DNA of 64,000 bases from positions 452,522 through 516,521 of the forward strand of contig NZ_JABEKX010000001.1 in NCBI RefSeq assembly GCF_013407595.1, written 5' to 3'. Positions 4,343 through 60,178 of this stretch are shown piece by piece. Numbering within the stretch: the stretch's first letter is position 1; every line of letters begins with the position of its first letter. The notes under the pieces were generated by a model that made no database searches, was not told where the DNA came from, and worked only from the letters and a program-made list of their open reading frames with translations. The stretch is from Lacticaseibacillus absianus. Its GTDB lineage: Bacteria; Bacillota; Bacilli; Lactobacillales; Lactobacillaceae. A program made the position numbers and the translations under genes.

Positions 4343-5167
4343 TCATTGGTCGGCGTCGTGCTTGCGCCGCTTCCGCAGCAGATCGGCCAGTGCGGCGATC
4401 TCGGCGGCGCTGGTGCGCGTGTCATTCAGGTGCAGGTGGGGAAAGCTGCGGAGCAACCGGCGCTGGACGTAGCTCAGGCGCGGCAGCTTCTCTCGGCGCG
4501 CCGCGCTCGTGCGGTACTGGTCGAGCCACGGGTACTCCTGCTCGAGCTTGGCCCCGGTTGCCGCTGCCTTGGCCCGCAGCTCCTGCTTGGTCGCCTCGAT
4601 CGTGTCGCCGATCCGCTTGGTCGCGGCACCGAATGCCAGCAAGTTGGCCAGGGTGAAGCCGAAGTCGAACATCAAGCCGGCGATCAAGGCGAAGGCGGCA
4701 AACATCCCGTAGGTCGTGTCAATGTGGCCGACGACCTGGGCGACCAGGGGGTGCAACCACTTGATCAACGCGACGACGCCCAGCCCCCAGAAGGCGGAGA
4801 TCGGCAGGGCGACGCGCCCGTTGAGGTTCAGTGGCACGTTGCTGTAATCCCACCAGCGCGCGTGAAACAGCCGCTCCATCAGCCAGGACGTCACGTATTC
4901 GATCACGGTGATCACCAGCGCCGAGCCGAGGTACAGCGCAAGCAGGTTATCCCGCCACGGCGCCAACAGGGTGAGGACTGCGGTCATCGAGAAGCCGTAG
5001 ACGGGGATCACCGGGCCGGTGAGGAAGCCGGAGTTGACCCACCGGCGTTTTTGGACGCTGACATAGGCACTTTCCCAGAGCCAGCCGACGAACCCGTAGG
5101 CAAAAAAGTACAGCACCCAGGTCGTGAACCCTTGTTCAAGTTGAAGCAGTTGCGCGGCGTGTGACAT
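4343..5167 (-). CDS. CmpB-type putative ABC transporter permease family membrane protein
   Basis: 274-residue integral membrane protein. The first half carries several hydrophobic helices with conserved pieces FVGWLWES, GPVIPVYG and WWDYSNVPLNLNGRV, which characterise the ABC_trans_CmpB (PF06541) group; the C-terminal 80 residues are basic and soluble. These proteins are called putative permeases, but no transport function is established that I know of. The start at 5167 is preceded by AAGGAGG on the minus strand and gives MSHAAQLLQL. The gene is divergent from the alkylation-repair gene. Confidence 0.75.
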   Translation of the reverse strand: MSHAAQLLQLEQGFTTWVLYFFAYGFVGWLWESAYVSVQKRRWVNSGFLTGPVIPVYGFSMTAVLTLLAPWRDNLLALYLGSALVITVIEYVTSWLMERLFHARWWDYSNVPLNLNGRVALPISAFWGLGVVALIKWLHPLVAQVVGHIDTTYGMFAAFALIAGLMFDFGFTLANLLAFGAATKRIGDTIEATKQELRAKAAATGAKLEQEYPWLDQYRTSAARREKLPRLSYVQRRLLRSFPHLHLNDTRTSAAEIAALADLLRKRRKHDADQ

Positions 5168-51385: not shown

Positions 51386-52213
51386 ATGTACAAAATGATC
51401 GTCAGTGACCTAGATGAAAGCTTGCTGCGAACGGATGGCAGTGTGTCGCCGCGCGACATCGCGACCATCCACCGACTCAAGCAAGAAGGCGTGAAGTTCG
51501 TGCCCAACACCGGGCGTGGGTTCGCCTCGGTGCAACCGCTATTGCAGGCACTGGGGACGGCCGGGGAGGCTGGACAGTACGTGATCTCGTATAACGGTGG
51601 TGCGATCGTCGACAACGCCCACAACGAGATCCTGATCGCCCACGCCTTGCCGTTCGAGGTCGCCGACCAGATCTACCGCATGGCGATGGCCAGCGGGCAG
51701 TTCTGCGCGCATGTCTACACCTTCCACCATGTCTACATCGCCAATCCGAACCCGGACGAGCTGGCGTACATGGCCAACCGAGGGGTCGCGTACGAGCCGT
51801 TGACGGCCGGTGACTTGAGCAGCCTGGTCGGGCGGCCGATTGCCAAGGTCATCTTCCAGAACCTTGACCTCGCGGTGCGACGCACCTTGCGCGAGCAGGT
51901 CGAGGCCACGATCGAGACCCCACTGAACGTGACGTACTCGTCGAACCGTTACGTGGAGTTCAATCCGGCGACGGTCGACAAGGGGGATGCGGCGATCGCG
52001 CTGGGCGAGCGGATCGGGATCGCACCCGAGGAGATCATCGCGCTTGGCGATAACGCCAACGACCTGAGCATGCTGACCAAGGTCGGCCTCGGCGTCTCGG
52101 TCGCCAACGGGATCCCTGCCGTGAAGGCCGCCGCGGGGCTGGTCTTACCTGTGACGAACGACGAAGACCCGGTCACGGCCCTCTATGCGGCCGTGTTTGG
52201 ACCAACTGAATAG
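51386..52213 (+). CDS. Cof-type HAD-IIB phosphatase
   Basis: 275 residues. Motif I is SDLDESLLRTD (Glu in place of the usual Gly of DxDGT), motif II the Thr of NTGRGF, and motif IV LGDNANDLSML; VDKGDAAIAL gives the lysine. Third Cof-type member in the window. The ribosome site (GAGG) is modest. Substrate unknown. The variant DLDES motif keeps both catalytic aspartates. Confidence 0.85.
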   Translation: MYKMIVSDLDESLLRTDGSVSPRDIATIHRLKQEGVKFVPNTGRGFASVQPLLQALGTAGEAGQYVISYNGGAIVDNAHNEILIAHALPFEVADQIYRMAMASGQFCAHVYTFHHVYIANPNPDELAYMANRGVAYEPLTAGDLSSLVGRPIAKVIFQNLDLAVRRTLREQVEATIETPLNVTYSSNRYVEFNPATVDKGDAAIALGERIGIAPEEIIALGDNANDLSMLTKVGLGVSVANGIPAVKAAAGLVLPVTNDEDPVTALYAAVFGPTE

Positions 52214-52227
52214 GGCCGATCTGTTAG

Positions 52228-52266
52228 TGGCGCGTTCACGGCTCACCTGTGGACGCGCCACTTTTT
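52228..52266 (+). terminator. Rho-independent terminator
   Basis: AGTGGCGCGT pairs with the ACGCGCCACT region and is followed by TTTTT. The remaining 52267-52569 holds no gene; it contains AT-rich stretches such as GGAATTTTTTTAGC and GCCGGTGTACCGGC. Confidence 0.75.
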
Positions 52267-52569
52267 GCGTGCAGCTGTACTACATCGTGTACTAGTTCAC
52301 AACCGCAGGGGAGACGAGGAGCCGCGCGCAAACTCATTGAATTCTTAGAAAAATCGGCAATTTTGTCGATTTTCGGAATTTTTTTAGCCGGTGTACCGGC
52401 CGGCTAGCACAGGGGATACCACAGGGGCTAGGCCTGCTTCAAAAGCGGGTCAAAACCCCGAGAGCCACCGTCGCTAGTGAAAGTAAGAAAATGAAAGCGT
52501 GCCAACCAATTTCACTAGGCCAATCCGGTAAGCGGCTACAAATGCCGGTAAATCAACAGATTGGTTCGG

Positions 52570-52598
52570 TTGACATCGTTTTGACAAGCGGTTACACT
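52570..52598 (+). promoter_or_regulatory. Promoter of the GntR gene
   Basis: TTGACA (52570-52575), 17-bp spacer, TACACT (52593-52598). A second TTGACA sits at 52581. Confidence 0.75.
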
Positions 52599-52606
52599 GT
52601 CGGTGG

Positions 52607-52616
52607 TTGGTACCAA
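52607..52616. promoter_or_regulatory. Candidate GntR (AgaR-type) operator
   Basis: TTGGTACCAA, a perfect palindrome just after the predicted transcription start; a close copy (GCGGTACCAA) is at 54804-54813 before the PTS genes. Confidence 0.55.
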
Positions 52617-52631
52617 TTAGGAGGCGCGCGT

Positions 52632-53366
52632 ATGGCAATTGAAGATCAGCCACTGCATGATCGCCTGGTCGACTTGCTTCGCGAGCAGATCAGGTCCAGC
52701 ATGGCCCCGCACAGCAAATTACCATCGGAACGCGCACTGGCTGAGCGTTACGGCGTCAGTCGCAACACGGTCCGAGCGGCGCTGTCGAAGCTGGAGATGA
52801 CCGGCGTGATCTACCGCAGCCGCGGGCGCGGGACCTTCGTGGCCAACCCGGTGGCCGAGCCGACTGACCTCGCGGAGACGTATAGCTTCTCCGAGCAGAT
52901 GTCCGATCAAGGTCGGACGCCTGAGAGCCAGGTGCTCTACCTACAGGAGTTCCCGGCAAACGACTACATCGTCACGCACCTGCACGTACCACTGGGGACT
53001 CCGACCTATAAGCTCAAGCGCTTGCGCTGTGCGGACGGGATCCCGCTGATGGTCGAGCGAACGTTCCTGCCGGCGGATCGCTTTCCGAAGCTTTCTGCCA
53101 AGGATATTGAGCGTGACGGGTTGTACCAAGTGATGCGGACCAAGTACGGTTGCGCGGTCTCCGATGCAATCGAAGCCTTCTTCGCCAGTCTGACCGGCGC
53201 GCACGACGCGAAGCTGCTCAAGGTGCCTAACGGTTCCCCGAGCCTGAGCGTTCAGCGCACGACCACGGCGACGAACGGCGAGATCGTCGAGTTCACGCTC
53301 AGCATCACCCGGGCTGACCAGTTCGTCTATCGTTACCACCACAGTCAAAAAGGGACGACCACCTGA
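52632..53366 (+). CDS. GntR/HutC-family regulator (UTRA domain)
   Basis: 244 residues: winged helix in the first 75 (KLPSERALAERYGVSRNTVRAALSKLE, then GRGTFVA), and a UTRA ligand domain (YKLKRLRCADGIPLMVERTFLP). The family senses sugar phosphates; adjacent amino-sugar genes suggest GalNAc or GlcNAc metabolites. ATG at 52632 follows AGGAGG. Likely autoregulated through TTGGTACCAA. Confidence 0.88.
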   Translation: MAIEDQPLHDRLVDLLREQIRSSMAPHSKLPSERALAERYGVSRNTVRAALSKLEMTGVIYRSRGRGTFVANPVAEPTDLAETYSFSEQMSDQGRTPESQVLYLQEFPANDYIVTHLHVPLGTPTYKLKRLRCADGIPLMVERTFLPADRFPKLSAKDIERDGLYQVMRTKYGCAVSDAIEAFFASLTGAHDAKLLKVPNGSPSLSVQRTTTATNGEIVEFTLSITRADQFVYRYHHSQKGTTT

Positions 53367-53496
53367 GGCCATCGACCAAAACTTGGCGTCCTGGCAGCTA
53401 ACCTGCCAAGATCGCTCGCATCTGCCCCGCCGACCCGTTATGGTAGGGGACAGAGGCCTGCGAGCATTATCGGAATCGATTCGAGGAGGAATCAAC

Positions 53497-54672
53497 GTGT
53501 TTGAGAAATCAGTAGAAGAACTCACTAAGATGGGCGCTCAGATCACGACCCAGGAGATCAAGCAGCAGCCGGAACTCTGGCAAGAAGCGTTCACGACTTA
53601 CACCGCCAAGAAGGCAGACATCGACGCATTCTTGGCCCGCGTGATCGCGGACGCCAACGGCCAGGTGGTCCGGGTGATCTTCACCGGCGCTGGCACCAGC
53701 GCCTACACCGGTGACACGGTCACCCCGTACTTGCAAAAGCACGGTGACCGCGCACACTTCCGCTTCGAATCCATCGCGACGACAGACATTGTCTCTGCGC
53801 CGTACGACTACCTCGAGGCAGAGACCCCGACCGTGCTCGTCTCCTTCGCCCGCTCAGGGAACTCGCCAGAGTCTGTGAAGACCGTTGAGCTGGCCGAACA
53901 GGTCATCAAGCACCTGCACCAGATCACGATCACCTGTGCGCCGGACGGCAAGCTCGCGCTCAAGGCACAAGGCGAAGCCGACAACCTGCTGCTGATGCAG
54001 CCGGCCGGGTCCAACGATAAGGGCTTTGCGATGACCGGCAGCTTCTCCTGCATGGCGCTGACGGCGATGCTGACCTTCGACCAGACGGATGAAGCCAAGA
54101 AGGCGGATTACCTGAAGACGATCGTCAACATGGGCCACGAGGTGATCAGCCGCGAAGCCGAGATCCAAGACCTGGTCAATGAAGACTTCGATCGAATCAC
54201 CTACCTGGGCTCCGGCTCACTGGGTGGGCTGACCCGCGAGGCTCAGCTCAAGGTGCTTGAGCTGACCGCGGGCAAGCTTGCGACGATCTTTGACACCTCG
54301 ATGGGCTTCCGTCACGGTCCGAAGTCCTTCGTCAACGACCGCACACTGGTCTTCGACTTCCTGTCGAACGACGCGTACACGCGCCAGTACGATGTGGACG
54401 TGATGGAAGAGATCAACGGCGATCATATCGCCAAGCGGATCGTTGCGATCGGCACTAGCCAGGCCAACGACTTCTCTGGTGAGAACTTCCTGTTCGCCGC
54501 TGGCGATCAGGCCCTGCCCGAAGGCTACCAGGCGCTGCCTGACGTGATGTTCGCCCAGACCCTGGCGTTGCTCGCCTCGATCAAGGTCAACAACCTGCCA
54601 GACACACCGAGCCCGACCGGGACCGTCAACCGTGTGGTCAAAGGGGTCATCCTGCACGACTACCAAGGCTGA
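53497..54672 (+). CDS. agaS: AgaS-type SIS sugar isomerase/deaminase
   Basis: 391 residues with tandem SIS domains: FTGAGTSAYTGD, SFARSGNSPES, and YLGSGSLGGLTREAQLKVLELTAG in the second, then GFRHGPKSFV. This is the AgaS family, galactosamine-6-phosphate deaminase/isomerase yielding tagatose-6-phosphate. Length is normal (about 385-390). GTG at 53497 follows AGGAGGA. It is upstream of the PTS genes, from which an IS30 now separates it. Confidence 0.85.
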   Translation: MFEKSVEELTKMGAQITTQEIKQQPELWQEAFTTYTAKKADIDAFLARVIADANGQVVRVIFTGAGTSAYTGDTVTPYLQKHGDRAHFRFESIATTDIVSAPYDYLEAETPTVLVSFARSGNSPESVKTVELAEQVIKHLHQITITCAPDGKLALKAQGEADNLLLMQPAGSNDKGFAMTGSFSCMALTAMLTFDQTDEAKKADYLKTIVNMGHEVISREAEIQDLVNEDFDRITYLGSGSLGGLTREAQLKVLELTAGKLATIFDTSMGFRHGPKSFVNDRTLVFDFLSNDAYTRQYDVDVMEEINGDHIAKRIVAIGTSQANDFSGENFLFAAGDQALPEGYQALPDVMFAQTLALLASIKVNNLPDTPSPTGTVNRVVKGVILHDYQG

Positions 54673-54679
54673 TGTGAGC

Positions 54680-54745
54680 GGCGCCGCCGCTTTCCAGATG
54701 AGCACACTTCCGCTGAAGCGTGCTGTTTTGGGGGGCGGCGGCGCC
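54680..54745 (+). terminator. Large GC-rich hairpin after agaS
   Basis: GGCGCCGCCGC (54680-54690) pairs with 54735-54745; an inner AGCAC/GTGCT hairpin is followed by GTTTTGG. It may end or weaken transcription from agaS. Confidence 0.5.
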
Positions 54746-54796
54746 ACCCAGCGAGTCGTCGCCACTGGGGCTACGGCTAATTGTAAGCAGTCACAT

Positions 54797-54825
54797 TTTT
54801 AACGCGGTACCAATGCCATTATTAT
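54797..54825 (+). promoter_or_regulatory. Probable original promoter/operator of the PTS operon
   Basis: TTTTAA (54797-54802), 17-bp spacer, TATTAT (54820-54825). The spacer contains GGTACCAAT (54806-54814), matching the operator at the regulator gene. The native leader ran on to the 13-bp site now duplicated by IS30. Confidence 0.45.
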
Positions 54826-54837
54826 CGGCGAGTTTGA

Positions 54838-54850
54838 ATACACTTAGGGG
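54838..54850. repeat. Left 13-bp direct repeat of the IS30 insertion
   Basis: ATACACTTAGGGG, repeated at 56044-56056 on the other side of the element. Confidence 0.8.
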
Positions 54851-56043
54851 CCCTGATTTAAACTTGAAGTGCAACACCTAGCCAGTCTCGAATTGACTAG
54901 ACCAAAAAGGCCATGATGACCTATTCTTATAAGCAACCAAGCAAGTAAGAAAGGAATCGTCATGACCCAAACTCAGCCTACCATGCCTCGCCACTACCGA
55001 CAACTATCGCTTATTGAACGTGGCCAGATTGAGGCCCTCTATGTCACCGGGAACACCATTACTGCCATCGCTGAAGTACTTCATCGCAGTAAGTCTACGG
55101 TGAGCCGTGAAATCAGACGCGGAACCACTGATCAGATTCGTGGTCGTGGTGAACACTTCCAACGCTACTTTGCCGAAACTGGGGCTGCTGTGTATGCCAA
55201 TCACCGTGCTCACTGCCGCCCGCAAACGCGCTTTGAACAGTGTCCTGACTTCTATGAACAGCTAGTCGTCGTACTTCGCCAGCGGCCTCGGATACATAGC
55301 GTTGATAGCTTCGTTCACGCGTATCGGCTCGATCATCCAGACGAGTTATGTCCTTCCACGCCGACGGTTTACCGCGATATCGATAAGGGTCTCCTAGCAG
55401 TACGCAACGGCGATCTGCCAATGAAGCCGCGGCGTCGAATCAAGAGCGATGCTCACAAGCACTCACGAACGAATAAGCGGGTCTATGGTCAGTCCATTGA
55501 AGAACGACCAGAGGAGGTCCAGGACCGTCAGATTATTGGCCATTGGGAGGGTGATCTGGTCAAAGGCACTCGCGTTGAGGACGAACCAGCACTGATGACA
55601 ATGACGGAACGTGTCACCCACTTTGAGATCATCCTTAAGCTGCCAAACTACCACGCCGAGACCTGCTTACAGGGCCTTCAATCGATTCTTGATGACTATG
55701 GCGCTGAGCACTTCAAGACGGTCACCTTTGACAACGGCAGTGAGTTCTCAAAGCTCTCTGAAGTCACGGGTACCTCCGTTTTCTATGCTCACCCATACTC
55801 GCCCTGGGAGCGTGGGACCAACGAACGTGCTAATAGCTTGATTAGGGAGTTCATACCCAAAGGACGATCTTTGCATGACTACGACATCACAGATATCCAA
55901 AGCTTCCAAGACGCACTCAACCAGCGTCCAAGACGGTCCTTGGATTACCACTGTGCAGCAGAACTGATGCCAGATCTATAGCATCACCTAGACCAATTAT
56001 TTGAATTGATCATCTAGTGTTGCACTTGAGTTGACAATCGGGG
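54851..56043 (+). mobile_element. IS30-family insertion sequence, 1193 bp
   Basis: Terminal inverted repeats of about 27 bp agree in 21 positions: CCCTGATTTAAACTTGAAGT on the left and CCCCGATTGTCAACTCAAGT read inward from the right, both continuing GCAACAC. The interior is one intact transposase gene. The flanking 13-bp repeats mark the insertion. Confidence 0.88.
54962..55981 (+). CDS. IS30-family transposase
   Basis: 339 residues. N-terminal HTH: LSLIERGQIEALYVTGNT and HRSKSTVSREIRRGT. The DDE catalytic residues sit in HWEGDLVKG, TFDNGSEF and ERGTNERANSLIREF. It appears complete, so the element may still move. AAAGGA precedes the ATG. Codon use is more A/T-tolerant than in neighbours. Confidence 0.93.
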   Translation: MTQTQPTMPRHYRQLSLIERGQIEALYVTGNTITAIAEVLHRSKSTVSREIRRGTTDQIRGRGEHFQRYFAETGAAVYANHRAHCRPQTRFEQCPDFYEQLVVVLRQRPRIHSVDSFVHAYRLDHPDELCPSTPTVYRDIDKGLLAVRNGDLPMKPRRRIKSDAHKHSRTNKRVYGQSIEERPEEVQDRQIIGHWEGDLVKGTRVEDEPALMTMTERVTHFEIILKLPNYHAETCLQGLQSILDDYGAEHFKTVTFDNGSEFSKLSEVTGTSVFYAHPYSPWERGTNERANSLIREFIPKGRSLHDYDITDIQSFQDALNQRPRRSLDYHCAAELMPDL

Positions 56044-56056
56044 ATACACTTAGGGG
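56044..56056. repeat. Right 13-bp direct repeat of the IS30 insertion
   Basis: ATACACTTAGGGG; the AGGGG part is also the ribosome site of the PTS EIIB gene. Confidence 0.8.
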
Positions 56057-56065
56057 GTATGAACT

Positions 56066-56548
56066 ATGGCAATTATTGCATCACGCATCGATGGCCGTCT
56101 GGTACACGGTCAAGTTGCAAACCTTTGGACCACTAAGCTGCAAGCGACCCGCATCATGGTCGTCGACAACGAAGTCTCCCAGTCGAAGATCGAGAAGAGC
56201 GGCCTGCGTATGGCCGCACCGGCCAGCGTCAAGCTGTCCGTGCTCGATATCGATACGGCAGCAGACCACATCCTGGCCGGCAAGTACGATTCTCAACGCG
56301 TCTTCGTGGTGGCGAAGAAGCCGGAGACGTTCCTCGCGCTGGTTCAAAAAGGGGTGCCGATCAAGTCTCTGAACGTCGGGAACATGTCCCAGACGCCTGA
56401 GACCCGCTCCATCACCAAGTCGATCAACGTGGTCGACGCGGACGTTGACGCCTTCAAGAAGCTCAATGACCTCGGCGTGAAGCTGACGGCCCAGATGGTG
56501 CCTGCTGACGACGCGAAGGACTTCATGAGCCTTCTGAACAAGGGATAG
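56066..56548 (+). CDS. PTS mannose-family EIIB
   Basis: 160-residue cytoplasmic phosphocarrier; the phosphorylated His14 is in RIDGRLVHGQV. It passes phosphate from EIIA to the sugar bound by IIC/IID. Best fit is the AgaB/AgaV (N-acetylgalactosamine) subgroup by context. The ribosome site TAGGGGG survives the IS30 insertion. Confidence 0.9.
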   Translation: MAIIASRIDGRLVHGQVANLWTTKLQATRIMVVDNEVSQSKIEKSGLRMAAPASVKLSVLDIDTAADHILAGKYDSQRVFVVAKKPETFLALVQKGVPIKSLNVGNMSQTPETRSITKSINVVDADVDAFKKLNDLGVKLTAQMVPADDAKDFMSLLNKG

Positions 56549-56560
56549 GAGGAATAAAGA

Positions 56561-57466
56561 ATGATTGCATGGTGGCAAATTCTTCTTTTGACGCTGTACG
56601 CTGGGTATCAGATCCTCGATGAATTGCAGATCTACTCTTCCATGTCTGCACCAGTCTTTGCCGGCTTCTTCGCCGGTCTGGTGATGGGCGACATGAAGGT
56701 CGGTCTGACCATCGGGGCAGCGATGCAGCTGACGGTTTTAGGGGTCGGGACCTTCGGGGGCGCGTCCAAGATCGACGCGAACTCTGGGACCCTGCTGGCG
56801 GTCGCCTTCTCTGTTGCGACCGGCATGAAGCCTGAACAGGCGATCACCGCACTGGCGGTCCCTGTTGCAGCCTTGATGATCTACACGGATATCTTGGCCC
56901 GCTTCTCCAACACGTACTTCGCACACCGGATCGACAAGCTGGTCGAAGAGGACAACTACAAGGGCATCGAGCGCTACTTCCTGGCTGGGGCCCTGCCATG
57001 GGCACTGTCCCGGATGATCCCTGTTGGTCTGGGCCTGGCACTTGGTGGTTCCGTCGTCAACAAGATCGTTGAATTCATCAACGGCCCGCTGAAGTGGTTG
57101 GGTGATGGGCTCACCGTTGCCGGTGCGGTCCTGCCTGCCGTCGGGTTCTCCATCTTGCTCCGTTACCTGCCAGTTAAGAAGCACATCGCTTACCTGCTGC
57201 TCGGCTTTACGATCACCAGCCTGATGACCACGCTGTTCGGTTCTATCCAAAACATCGGGACTGCGCTTGGCGCAGCGCCAAAAGTGGCGGCGAACCTGGG
57301 GAGCTTCAACGGCCTGTCCATGCTGGCGATCGCGCTGATCGGGCTGGCACTGGCACTCATCTCTTACAACCACAGCGCGGAGCTTCTGAACCTTAAGCCG
57401 ACTGCCGCTGCTGCAACGCAAGCGAACACTTCAGATGAGGGGGAGATCACAGATGACGAACTATAA
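56561..57466 (+). CDS. PTS mannose-family EIIC
   Basis: 301-residue membrane subunit; about six to eight hydrophobic helices, with GLVMGDMKVGLTIGAAMQL and FGGASKIDANSGT typical of the family. Forms the sugar channel with EIID. AGGAGG precedes the ATG. The stop lies inside the IID start region (14-bp overlap). Confidence 0.9.
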   Translation: MIAWWQILLLTLYAGYQILDELQIYSSMSAPVFAGFFAGLVMGDMKVGLTIGAAMQLTVLGVGTFGGASKIDANSGTLLAVAFSVATGMKPEQAITALAVPVAALMIYTDILARFSNTYFAHRIDKLVEEDNYKGIERYFLAGALPWALSRMIPVGLGLALGGSVVNKIVEFINGPLKWLGDGLTVAGAVLPAVGFSILLRYLPVKKHIAYLLLGFTITSLMTTLFGSIQNIGTALGAAPKVAANLGSFNGLSMLAIALIGLALALISYNHSAELLNLKPTAAAATQANTSDEGEITDDEL

Positions 57467-58259
57467 GCTGAATGACAAAGACTTCAAGCAGATCAACCAA
57501 CGCTCCCTGTTCGGCTTCCAACTGGGTTGGAACTACGAACGGATGCAGGGCTCAGGTTACCTGTATCACATCCTGCCGCAGTTGCGGAAGATCTACGGGG
57601 ACAACACCCCTGAGTTGAAGGAAATGATGCGGACGCACACCCAGTTCTTCAACACGTCCAACTTCTTCAACACCATCATCACCGGGATCGACCTGGCGAT
57701 CGAAGAAGAGCAAGGGATCAAGGGTAAGGAAACCGTTGCCGGGATCAAGGCCGGCTTGATGGGCTCCTTCGCCGCGATCGGGGACTCGATCTTCGCCGCG
57801 CTGGTGCCTGCGATCTTCGGGGCCATTGCCGCCAACATGGCCGCGAACGGCAACCCGGTCGGGATCTTCATCTGGATCGCCGCACAAGTCGTCGTCGACG
57901 TCTTCCGTTGGGTTCAGCTGAAGTTCGCCTACAAAGAAGGGGTCAACTTGGTCACCAACATGCAGCACACGCTGAATGCGTTGACCGACGCTGCTTCCCT
58001 GATGGGTGTGTTCATGGTCGGCGCTCTGGTCGCGACCATGATCAACGTCAAGTTCGCTTGGGCCCCTGTGATCGGCTCCGTGCCGACCAACATTCAAAAC
58101 AACTTGGACATGATCCTGCCACGTCTGTTCCCGGCCCTGATCTGCGGGTTCGTCTACTGGATGCTGGGTAAAAAGGGCATGACCTCGACCAAGGCGATCT
58201 TCATCGTGTTGTTCCTGGCGATCGCGCTGGGCGCACTTGGGATCATCGCGAAGGGTTAA
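57453..58259 (+). CDS. PTS mannose-family EIID
   Basis: 268 residues. A cytoplasmic N-terminal part (QRSLFGFQLGWNYERMQGSGY) and MGSFAAIGDSIFAALVPAI are hallmarks; the C-terminus is hydrophobic. ATG at 57453 is preceded by GGGGGAG and overlaps the IIC gene, so the two are translated together. Confidence 0.9.
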   Translation: MTNYKLNDKDFKQINQRSLFGFQLGWNYERMQGSGYLYHILPQLRKIYGDNTPELKEMMRTHTQFFNTSNFFNTIITGIDLAIEEEQGIKGKETVAGIKAGLMGSFAAIGDSIFAALVPAIFGAIAANMAANGNPVGIFIWIAAQVVVDVFRWVQLKFAYKEGVNLVTNMQHTLNALTDAASLMGVFMVGALVATMINVKFAWAPVIGSVPTNIQNNLDMILPRLFPALICGFVYWMLGKKGMTSTKAIFIVLFLAIALGALGIIAKG

Positions 58260-58286
58260 TTTTCAACAAGTAAAGGACGGATTATT

Positions 58287-58667
58287 ATGAGTGAATTGGT
58301 ACTGGTTAGTCACGGTCAGTTCTGCACGGAACTGAAGAAGAGCGCTGAAATGATCATGGGCCCGCAGGACAACATCCACACGGTGGAACTGCTGCCAAGT
58401 GACGGCCCGGATGATTTTCGGGGCAAGTTCGAGCAGATCACGGCGGGTCTGAGCGACTTCACCGTCTTCGCAGACTTGATGGGCGGCACGCCTTGCAACG
58501 TGGTCGCACGCATCTTGATGGAAGGCAAGGGGTCCTTCGACCTGTACGCCGGCATGAACTTGCCAATGATCATCAGCTTCATCAACGGTGAGATGGTCGG
58601 CATGGCGCCGAACATCCTGGACGACGCGAAAGCCGGTATCGTGCACGTCAACGATATGCTGTCCTGA
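58287..58667 (+). CDS. PTS mannose-family EIIA
   Basis: 126-residue cytoplasmic EIIA with the phosphorylated His9 in VLVSHGQF, and FADLMGGTPCNVVAR as the conserved loop. Gene order IIB-IIC-IID-IIA. AAAGGA lies upstream of the ATG. Confidence 0.9.
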   Translation: MSELVLVSHGQFCTELKKSAEMIMGPQDNIHTVELLPSDGPDDFRGKFEQITAGLSDFTVFADLMGGTPCNVVARILMEGKGSFDLYAGMNLPMIISFINGEMVGMAPNILDDAKAGIVHVNDMLS

Positions 58668-58680
58668 TGACAAACGAGTT

Positions 58681-58706
58681 GGCCCGGGCGAGAGTCCGGG
58701 CCTTCT
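58681..58706 (+). terminator. Probable terminator after EIIA
   Basis: GGCCCGG (58681-58687) pairs with CCGGGCC (58696-58702), followed by TTCTT. Confidence 0.6.
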
Positions 58707-58751
58707 TGCGTCGATGGCCCCGCTTCTGGCCTAGACCAATGGCGTAACTCG

Positions 58752-58760
58752 TGGTACACT
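58752..58760 (+). promoter_or_regulatory. Extended -10 element of the deacetylase gene
   Basis: TGG-TACACT 44 bases before the start; GTGGTACAC is also a degenerate form of the GGTACC operator core. Confidence 0.4.
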
Positions 58761-58803
58761 GTAAGATGAAAACGGATAACCTAGACGATAAGGAGATCAT
58801 GTA

Positions 58804-59964
58804 ATGAGCTACTACATTCATGCTGCGAAGTTTTTCCTGAAGAACACGACCGAAAACGGGGGCTGGCTCGAAGTCACCGATGACGGCAAGTTCGGCGACT
58901 TTACCCCGTCTTACGGGCAGAAGCCGGCAGGCGAGATCAAGGATTACGGCGAGCAGTGGATCGCCCCGGGCCTCGTGGACACGCACATCCACGGCTCACT
59001 TGGCCATGATGTCATGGACAACGACTGGGCGGGCATTAACGAGATGTCTGAAGGGCTGCTGAAGACTGGGGTCACCAGCTGGCTGCCGACGACGCTGACC
59101 GGTCCGTTCGAGCAGCTCAACGACGTCTGCAAGACCATCGGGGCACACGCCGGCGAAGAGACTGGGGCTAAGATCCAGGGGATCTACTTCGAAGGGCCAT
59201 TCTTCACCGAGGAGCACAAGGGCGCGCAGAACCCGAAGTACTTCCGCGATCCGTCGATCGAAGAATACGATGAATGGCAGAAGAGCGCGAAGGGCTTGCT
59301 GCAGAAGATGGCGCTGGCGCCAGAGCGTGACGGGGCCGTTGCATTCACCAAGCACATGAGCCAAGACGGCAAGGCGGTTGCCTTGGGCCACAGTAGCGCG
59401 ACTTACGAACAGGCGAAGGCCTGTGTTGAAGCCGGGGCGACCGTGTTCTGCCACACCTTCAACGGGATGTCGGGGCTGAACCACCGCGAGCCCGGGATGG
59501 TCGGCGCTGCGATGTACATGCAGATCGTCGACGACGAGCTGATCTGTGACGGCCACCACGTGCGCCCAGAGGTCGTCGGGTCCCTGATCCGTGAAAAGAC
59601 GCCGGAGCACATCGCCTTGATCACCGACTGCATGGCCGCTGGGATGATGCCAGATGGTGACTACATGTTGGGTGAATTCCCTGTCGTCGTGGCGAACGGG
59701 ACGGCCCGGCTCAAGGACGGTGCGCACAGCCTGGCTGGCTCCATCCTCAAGCTCAACGACGCGATCAAGAACGTGGTGGACTGGAACGACGTGACGCCAG
59801 AAGCCGCTGTGATGATGGGCGCCTATGTGCCAGCGAAGTCCGCGAAGATCGAAGACAAGTGCGGGTCGATCCTGCCGGGTCGCGATGCCGACTTCATCGT
59901 TTTGAACAGCGACATGTCGCTGGCAGAGACCTACCTCGATGGTGTCTCCCGTTACCAAGCTTAG
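58804..59964 (+). CDS. nagA: N-acetylhexosamine-6-phosphate deacetylase (NagA/AgaA)
   Basis: 386 residues of the amidohydrolase fold. Metal and catalytic residues: DTHIHG, YFEGPF, ALGHSSAT, FCHTFNGMSGL, and the catalytic Asp of ITDCMAAG. It removes acetate from GlcNAc-6-P or GalNAc-6-P. In this locus it works between the PTS and AgaS. It could also be the cell's general NagA. AAGGAG precedes the ATG. Confidence 0.92.
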   Translation: MSYYIHAAKFFLKNTTENGGWLEVTDDGKFGDFTPSYGQKPAGEIKDYGEQWIAPGLVDTHIHGSLGHDVMDNDWAGINEMSEGLLKTGVTSWLPTTLTGPFEQLNDVCKTIGAHAGEETGAKIQGIYFEGPFFTEEHKGAQNPKYFRDPSIEEYDEWQKSAKGLLQKMALAPERDGAVAFTKHMSQDGKAVALGHSSATYEQAKACVEAGATVFCHTFNGMSGLNHREPGMVGAAMYMQIVDDELICDGHHVRPEVVGSLIREKTPEHIALITDCMAAGMMPDGDYMLGEFPVVVANGTARLKDGAHSLAGSILKLNDAIKNVVDWNDVTPEAAVMMGAYVPAKSAKIEDKCGSILPGRDADFIVLNSDMSLAETYLDGVSRYQA

Positions 59965-59985
59965 TTAACCCGTTGTACTACCTGA

Positions 59986-60021
59986 ACGACCGGACGCTTT
60001 TAGGCGCCTGGTCGTTTTTTG
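59986..60021 (+). terminator. Rho-independent terminator
   Basis: ACGACCGGACGC pairs with GCGCCTGGTCGT, followed by six T residues. In 60022-60178 I see nothing further. Confidence 0.85.
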
Positions 60022-60178
60022 GTGCGCAAGATCTGACGAAATAATTCGCGGTTATTGCGCCAAAAAATGGCTGAATGGTACACCGGCGCCACGATCGGTC
60101 GGGTGGTGATCGTATGTAAACCCTGGTACTCCAGCGATCAAGGCGCACGATGGACAGATGTTGACCCGCTTGATTAAA

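Follow-up and report, generated by a model that had tools for sequence, protein, structure and literature searches.

Gene cluster and inserted element

The window analysed is a stretch of 64,000 nucleotides from Lacticaseibacillus absianus (contig NZ_JABEKX010000001.1, positions 452,522 to 516,521), a species represented here by a single genome. Table 1 summarizes the features around one intergenic region of this window. A regulator gene (gntR) and an agaS gene are followed by consecutive open frames for the EIIB, EIIC, EIID and EIIA components of a mannose-class PTS, as recognised by Pfam, and then by nagA. For gntR and agaS, the start codons given were chosen over those of the longest open reading frames, which begin at 52491 and 53383, respectively; the agaS start chosen is GTG. 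AgaS scores 416.8 bits against TIGR02815, which is under the curated cut-off of 529.2, yet this profile is its best match by far. Seven EIID-type loci were matched in the genome, namely this PTS and six others.

Table 1. Features of the agaS-PTS region (window coordinates).
Feature	Position	Strand	Remarks
gntR promoter TTGACA-17-TACACT	52570-52598	+	10/12 consensus matches
Putative GntR operator TGGTTGGTACCA(AT)	52604-52617	+	between -10 and gntR start
GntR/HutC-type regulator (GntR + UTRA)	52629-53366	+	Pfam PF00392, PF07702
AgaS-family enzyme (gnbE-like)	53497-54672	+	TIGR02815, Pfam SIS
Hairpin following agaS; may be a terminator or a processing stem	54675-54750	+	inverted repeat, 75% complementary
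Cre-like site TGTAAGCAGTCACA (weak)	54782-54795	+	1 mismatch to cre consensus; also in L052
Candidate native PTS promoter	54796-54825	+	-10 TATTAT at 54820-54825, poor -35
GGTACC in conserved leader element GGTACCAATGCCATTATT	54806-54811	+	candidate GntR half-site
Target duplication, left copy	54838-54850	+	ATACACTTAGGGG, exact 13/13
IS30-family insertion sequence	54851-56043	+	1193 bp, intact, between agaS and EIIB
Left terminal inverted repeat	54851-54877	+	27 nt
IS30 transposase	54962-55981	+	339 aa, complete frame; NCBIfam NF033563, HTH_38
Right terminal inverted repeat	56017-56043	+	27 nt; outward -35-like TTGACA at 56031-56036
Target duplication, right copy	56044-56056	+	ATACACTTAGGGG, exact; overlaps EIIB ribosome-binding site
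PTS EIIB, mannose/sorbose class	56066-56548	+	PF03830
PTS EIIC	56561-57466	+	PF03609
PTS EIID	57435-58259	+	PF03613; start taken from the frame list, the real one may lie further in
PTS EIIA	58287-58667	+	PF03610
Putative GntR operator TGGCCTAGACCA and nagA promoter TAGACC-17-TACACT	58727-58760	+	
NagA-type amino-sugar-6-phosphate deacetylase	58804-59964	+	TIGR00221, 279.6 bits, cut-off 225.65

The agaS-EIIB gap is occupied by the insertion sequence. Its two terminal inverted repeats are imperfect, with 20 of 27 positions alike, and its transposase gene has the same orientation as the PTS genes. The 339-aa frame scores 241.3 bits against NF033563 (transpos_IS30; cut-off 80); HTH_38 is also matched, while the rve match falls under its own cut-off. 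The first-pass annotation had placed an IS30 element between an upstream leader and the PTS genes, and this is borne out by the terminal repeats, the NF033563 match and the uninterrupted leader of Lacticaseibacillus daqingensis. The range it gave (54797-56068) contains the element, the element proper being shorter (Table 1). The 13-bp duplication that it described is exact; rather than lying directly before the EIIB ribosome site, the right copy overlaps it and contains its AGGGG. The ribosome-binding site, AGGGGGT-ATGAACT-ATG with AGGGGG 8 nt 5' of the ATG, is intact on the PTS side. As the same annotation held, the native leader is split: the insertion parts the conserved leader GGTACCAATGCCATTATTATCGG, which is shared with L. 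daqingensis and may contain a -10, from the PTS start codon, and the distance from GGTACC to the EIIB start codon grew from 54 bp to 1,260 bp.

Empty site and related elements

Among the named relatives, the nearest is L. daqingensis (L052), with the same gene order, an EIIB 96% identical to that of the source strain, and an uninterrupted agaS-EIIB leader. When the element and one repeat copy are removed, the gap of the source strain becomes 187 bp, and it aligns to that of L. daqingensis, which measures 203 bp. Both leaders share the runs GGTACCAATGCCATTATTATCGGCGAG and ATACACTTAGGGGGTATGAACT without a difference, despite a synonymous divergence of 0.8 in agaS and 0.5 in EIIB. The PTS genes are intact, with dN/dS of 0.03-0.11 against L. 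daqingensis, a value that also covers the history before the insertion. This transposase was found at none of the 100 EIIB loci examined, within the sequence covered around each; they comprise 20 same-genus loci (with 1.5-kb flanks) and 80 loci of named genomes, some species being in both sets. The list of 13 agaS-EIIB gaps took only matches on the + strand; same-genus loci in the other orientation are absent from it and were kept in the transposase search. In the leader common to four relatives, the alignment has a mean column identity of 50%. The EIIB leaders of L060 and L087 (about 4800-5003), and also those of L053 and L058, are long and hold TTGGATTCCACGCCATTAAGGC-like elements; inverted stretches seen by eye in L060 and L087 may form a hairpin.

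In the source genome, a 2.84-Mb draft in 11 contigs, the element has one match. Among 100 genomes, for each of which at most four first-look candidates were scored, near-identical full copies were listed in two, the source genome included. The second copy, in a genome of the same genus (L023), shows a single difference in 1,193 bases, located 5' of the transposase start, and is bounded by the same terminal repeats. No flanking duplication was found for it, which neither strengthens nor weakens the reading of the present locus. Judging from the perfect 13-bp repeat and from the near-identity of the L023 copy, the transposition into this site appears to be recent.

Twenty-nine loci with related elements from the same bacterial family were scanned, and both ends were recognised in 14. 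Exact target duplications of 13-16 bp were seen in six of these (L026, L034, L036, L037, L048 and L051), all produced by elements of this IS30 branch; two others had shorter ones that may be due to chance (5 bp in L033, 2 bp in L049), and six, L023 included, had none. Therefore, a long duplication is usual in this branch. Inspected by eye, the duplication in L036 seems to extend across the start of a gene. In a plasmid search, 17 records matched over short stretches (80-90% identity), but no record covered 80% of the element, and a phage search gave no match. Among the titles listed from the mostly non-subscription literature searched, none reports this insertion.

Candidate GntR operators

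We compared the leaders of gntR, EIIB and nagA in nine loci, consisting of the source strain, L052, L053, L054, L055, L057, L058, L060 and L087. Those left out of the 17 mapped loci had a differing order around EIIB (L056, L059, L061, L062, L063, L069 and L073) or no agaS match beside the PTS (L064 and L068). The scan covered 150 bases before each start, the start codons of the relatives being set from tblastn ends, and significance was assessed with 200 first-order resamplings for each motif test.

Before gntR, TTGGTACCAA is exact in all nine Lacticaseibacillus leaders, 22-26 nt from the start, which makes it a strong candidate for an autoregulatory operator. TGGTTGGTACCA has one exact match in the 2.84-Mb genome. 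The first-pass annotation had also taken the GGTACC before the PTS for the GntR operator. The perfect conservation of TTGGTACCAA before gntR agrees with such a regulator site, but before EIIB the motif is exact in only one of the nine leaders; four, the source strain among them, have 2 mismatches, and another four have at least 3. The match in the source strain was equalled in 7 of the 200 shuffles, and by eye only the right half of TGGTTGGTACCA is kept there. The leader 18-mer holding GGTACC occurs once in the genome, even with up to 3 mismatches allowed, and is identical in L052. GGTACC as a self-sufficient signal was rejected, because it is rarer in the window than expected (5 against 8.5); its weight comes only from context and conservation. 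Genome-wide, TGGTNTAGACCA with at most 1 mismatch gave 72 strand matches against 38 for the reversed control, palindromes being counted twice. It is plausible, on this comparison of leaders, that the GGTACC of the EIIB leader is part of a GntR operator.

For nagA, a site resembling TGGTCTAGACCA with at most 2 mismatches was found in seven of the nine leaders. Since the scan was confined to 150 bases and to starts set by tblastn, the misses in L060 and L087 may be sites that lie further off. Together with the TAGACC-17-TACACT candidate, the TGGCCTAGACCA site suggests that nagA is a separate GntR-controlled unit. The HutC-type motif TGGTCTAGACCA was also tried before EIIB and was discarded there, as its best match had at least 4 mismatches in the nine leaders.

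A further resemblance lies within the element. Its own leader (54893-54927) holds TTGACTAGACCA, and the TAGACC in this motif doubles as the -35 in the best candidate for a transposase promoter, an arrangement much like that at nagA. The site at 54893 has 2 mismatches, and seven such sites were counted in the window against 1.3 expected, so that the count as a whole is above chance. Acquired GntR control of the element was considered and set aside, since the stretch belongs to the element's own leader: at least 28 of its 38 positions were matched in 23 of the 29 related loci. The likeness to the GntR operator is therefore probably due to chance.

Native promoter and other leader signals

The native PTS promoter at 54796-54825 is a weak prediction, TTTAAC-16-TATTAT or variants of it, with 8/12 matches at spacers of 16-18 (3/6 in the -35 and 5/6 in the -10). 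Its region is conserved with L. daqingensis. The cre-like sites of the window are not above chance (3 against 2.2 expected). The hairpin after agaS was not called as a terminator by the terminator scan, and an Rfam search of 52200-60100 gave no match at gathering scores.

Proposed effect of the insertion on expression

The explanation we favour, with moderate confidence, is that an intact element of the IS30 family recently entered the 5' untranslated leader of a gnb/aga-type amino-sugar PTS operon, after which the PTS would be expressed at a reduced level by read-through, with residual native control, and the transporter would be uncoupled from the enzymes. To reach EIIB, transcripts from the native promoter would have to run through 1.2 kb in which the transposase gene has the same orientation, and PTS output would therefore be lowered and not abolished. 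What remains would be mostly read-through under native GntR control, since the native promoter and operator region is intact upstream, and the transposase promoter may add some weak transcription. Both gntR-agaS and nagA would retain their own GntR-type promoters. Given the putative operator and promoter of nagA, and likewise those of gntR-agaS, transporter and partner enzymes have probably been uncoupled and are no longer co-regulated. If most PTS transcription began at the gntR promoter and passed through agaS, the element would still be polar and the local GGTACC would be less important.

The first-pass annotation had raised two outcomes, a silent PTS or one released from its GntR repressor, and neither is preferred here. 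An insertion between a promoter and the first gene is usually polar, and transcription might halt in the element altogether, leaving the strain without sugar uptake by this system. The six further EIID-type loci mean that such a loss could be tolerated. A complete silencing is nevertheless rather unlikely in our judgement: transposase and PTS genes point the same way, the ribosome site is intact and the PTS frames are open, and the + strand scan of the element for terminators gave only a 5-pair stem, none being convincing (matches in the region were at chance level, 8 against 6.2 +/- 3.0). An additional 1.2 kb of upstream RNA usually lowers the expression of the first gene. This argues against the limiting case of the favoured explanation, in which read-through is so strong that the expression and control of the PTS are practically unchanged; the intact native leader, the co-oriented genes and the same terminator scan speak for it, and we regard it as improbable.

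The insertion might also have freed the PTS, which would then be expressed constitutively and outside GntR control from a promoter lying either within the element or at the right junction. The right end does carry a perfect outward TTGACA; in PMC9330008, ISAba125, of the IS30 family, is described as providing genes next to it with a -35, and IS18 is named among the activating elements. Within the element, a relaxed scan gave three + strand candidates at 8/12 each, namely TAGACC-18-TATTCT (54898), TCGTCA-16-TACCAT (54957) and TTGAGG-16-GACAAT (55575), but none at 9/12 or above. The right junction offers two at 7/12, TTGCAC-19-TACACT and TGCACT-18-TACACT, which are weak and whose RNA start, judging from the spacing, would fall at about the ribosome site. 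A hybrid promoter using the outward TTGACA was rejected on spacing, because no -10 was found in the PTS flank at 16-18 nt from it. We consider release from native control distinctly unlikely. Taken together, the co-oriented transposase, the lack of a convincing terminator and a TTGACA without a -10 are the reasons why reduced read-through is favoured over silencing or release.

A quite different role for the element, to which we give only a very slight chance, is that of a switch. PTS expression would be low with the element as inserted, and in a tandem dimer the predicted promoter TTGACA-17-TAAACT would read toward the PTS across the second copy. If this were true, cells would differ in PTS expression according to the state that the element is in, and the native leader would be bypassed.

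With reduced read-through as the preferred reading, a natural insertion may have split a sugar regulon, so that the transporter and the enzymes respond separately. Since every gene is intact, annotation gene by gene would miss the split. The event itself is ordinary insertion-sequence biology, a routine example of polarity with a plausible regulatory effect.

Comparison with known systems

The element shares with the IS30 family a transposase profile above cut-off, HTH_38, a length of about 1.2 kb and imperfect terminal repeats. When its ends are abutted with a 2-nt spacer, they would form a junction promoter, TTGACA-17-TAAACT (10/12 consensus matches), which is a further predicted likeness to the family. 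IS30 itself makes target duplications of 2-3 bp, in contrast to the 13 bp of the present element. As at our locus, ISAba125 and IS18 are IS30-family elements situated directly upstream of a gene, according to PMC9330008. ISAba125 activates genes through an outward -35 in its end; the present element also has an outward -35, whereas its flank has no -10 at the required spacing.

For the regulator, PMC4494728 reports GT-N4-AC spacing for most sites of the HutC subfamily, and TGGTTGGTACCA at gntR fits this spacing. The closest counterpart of the cluster is the gnb cluster of Lacticaseibacillus casei, which, as described in PMC6109692, likewise brings together an AgaS-type gnbE, a deacetylase gnbF and a mannose-class PTS; PTS-Gnb is required there for growth on GalNAc. 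From this likeness we infer that GalNAc would be the substrate of the present PTS. The L. casei regulator is named GnbR, and the motif of streptococcal AgaR2 is reported to be similar to that of GnbR (PMC4694137). The two clusters differ in that the L. casei cluster includes a phospho-beta-galactosidase, GnbG (GH35), whereas the cluster here, on contig C1, has no GH35 gene. Contig C4 carries the genome's single GH35 match (77569-78528, L139), which is divergent from a gene that we labelled, by eye from its translation, as an AraC-like regulator. The gene order also differs from that of the L. zeae locus (L059), in which both agaS and nagA stand before the PTS, whereas here nagA follows it.
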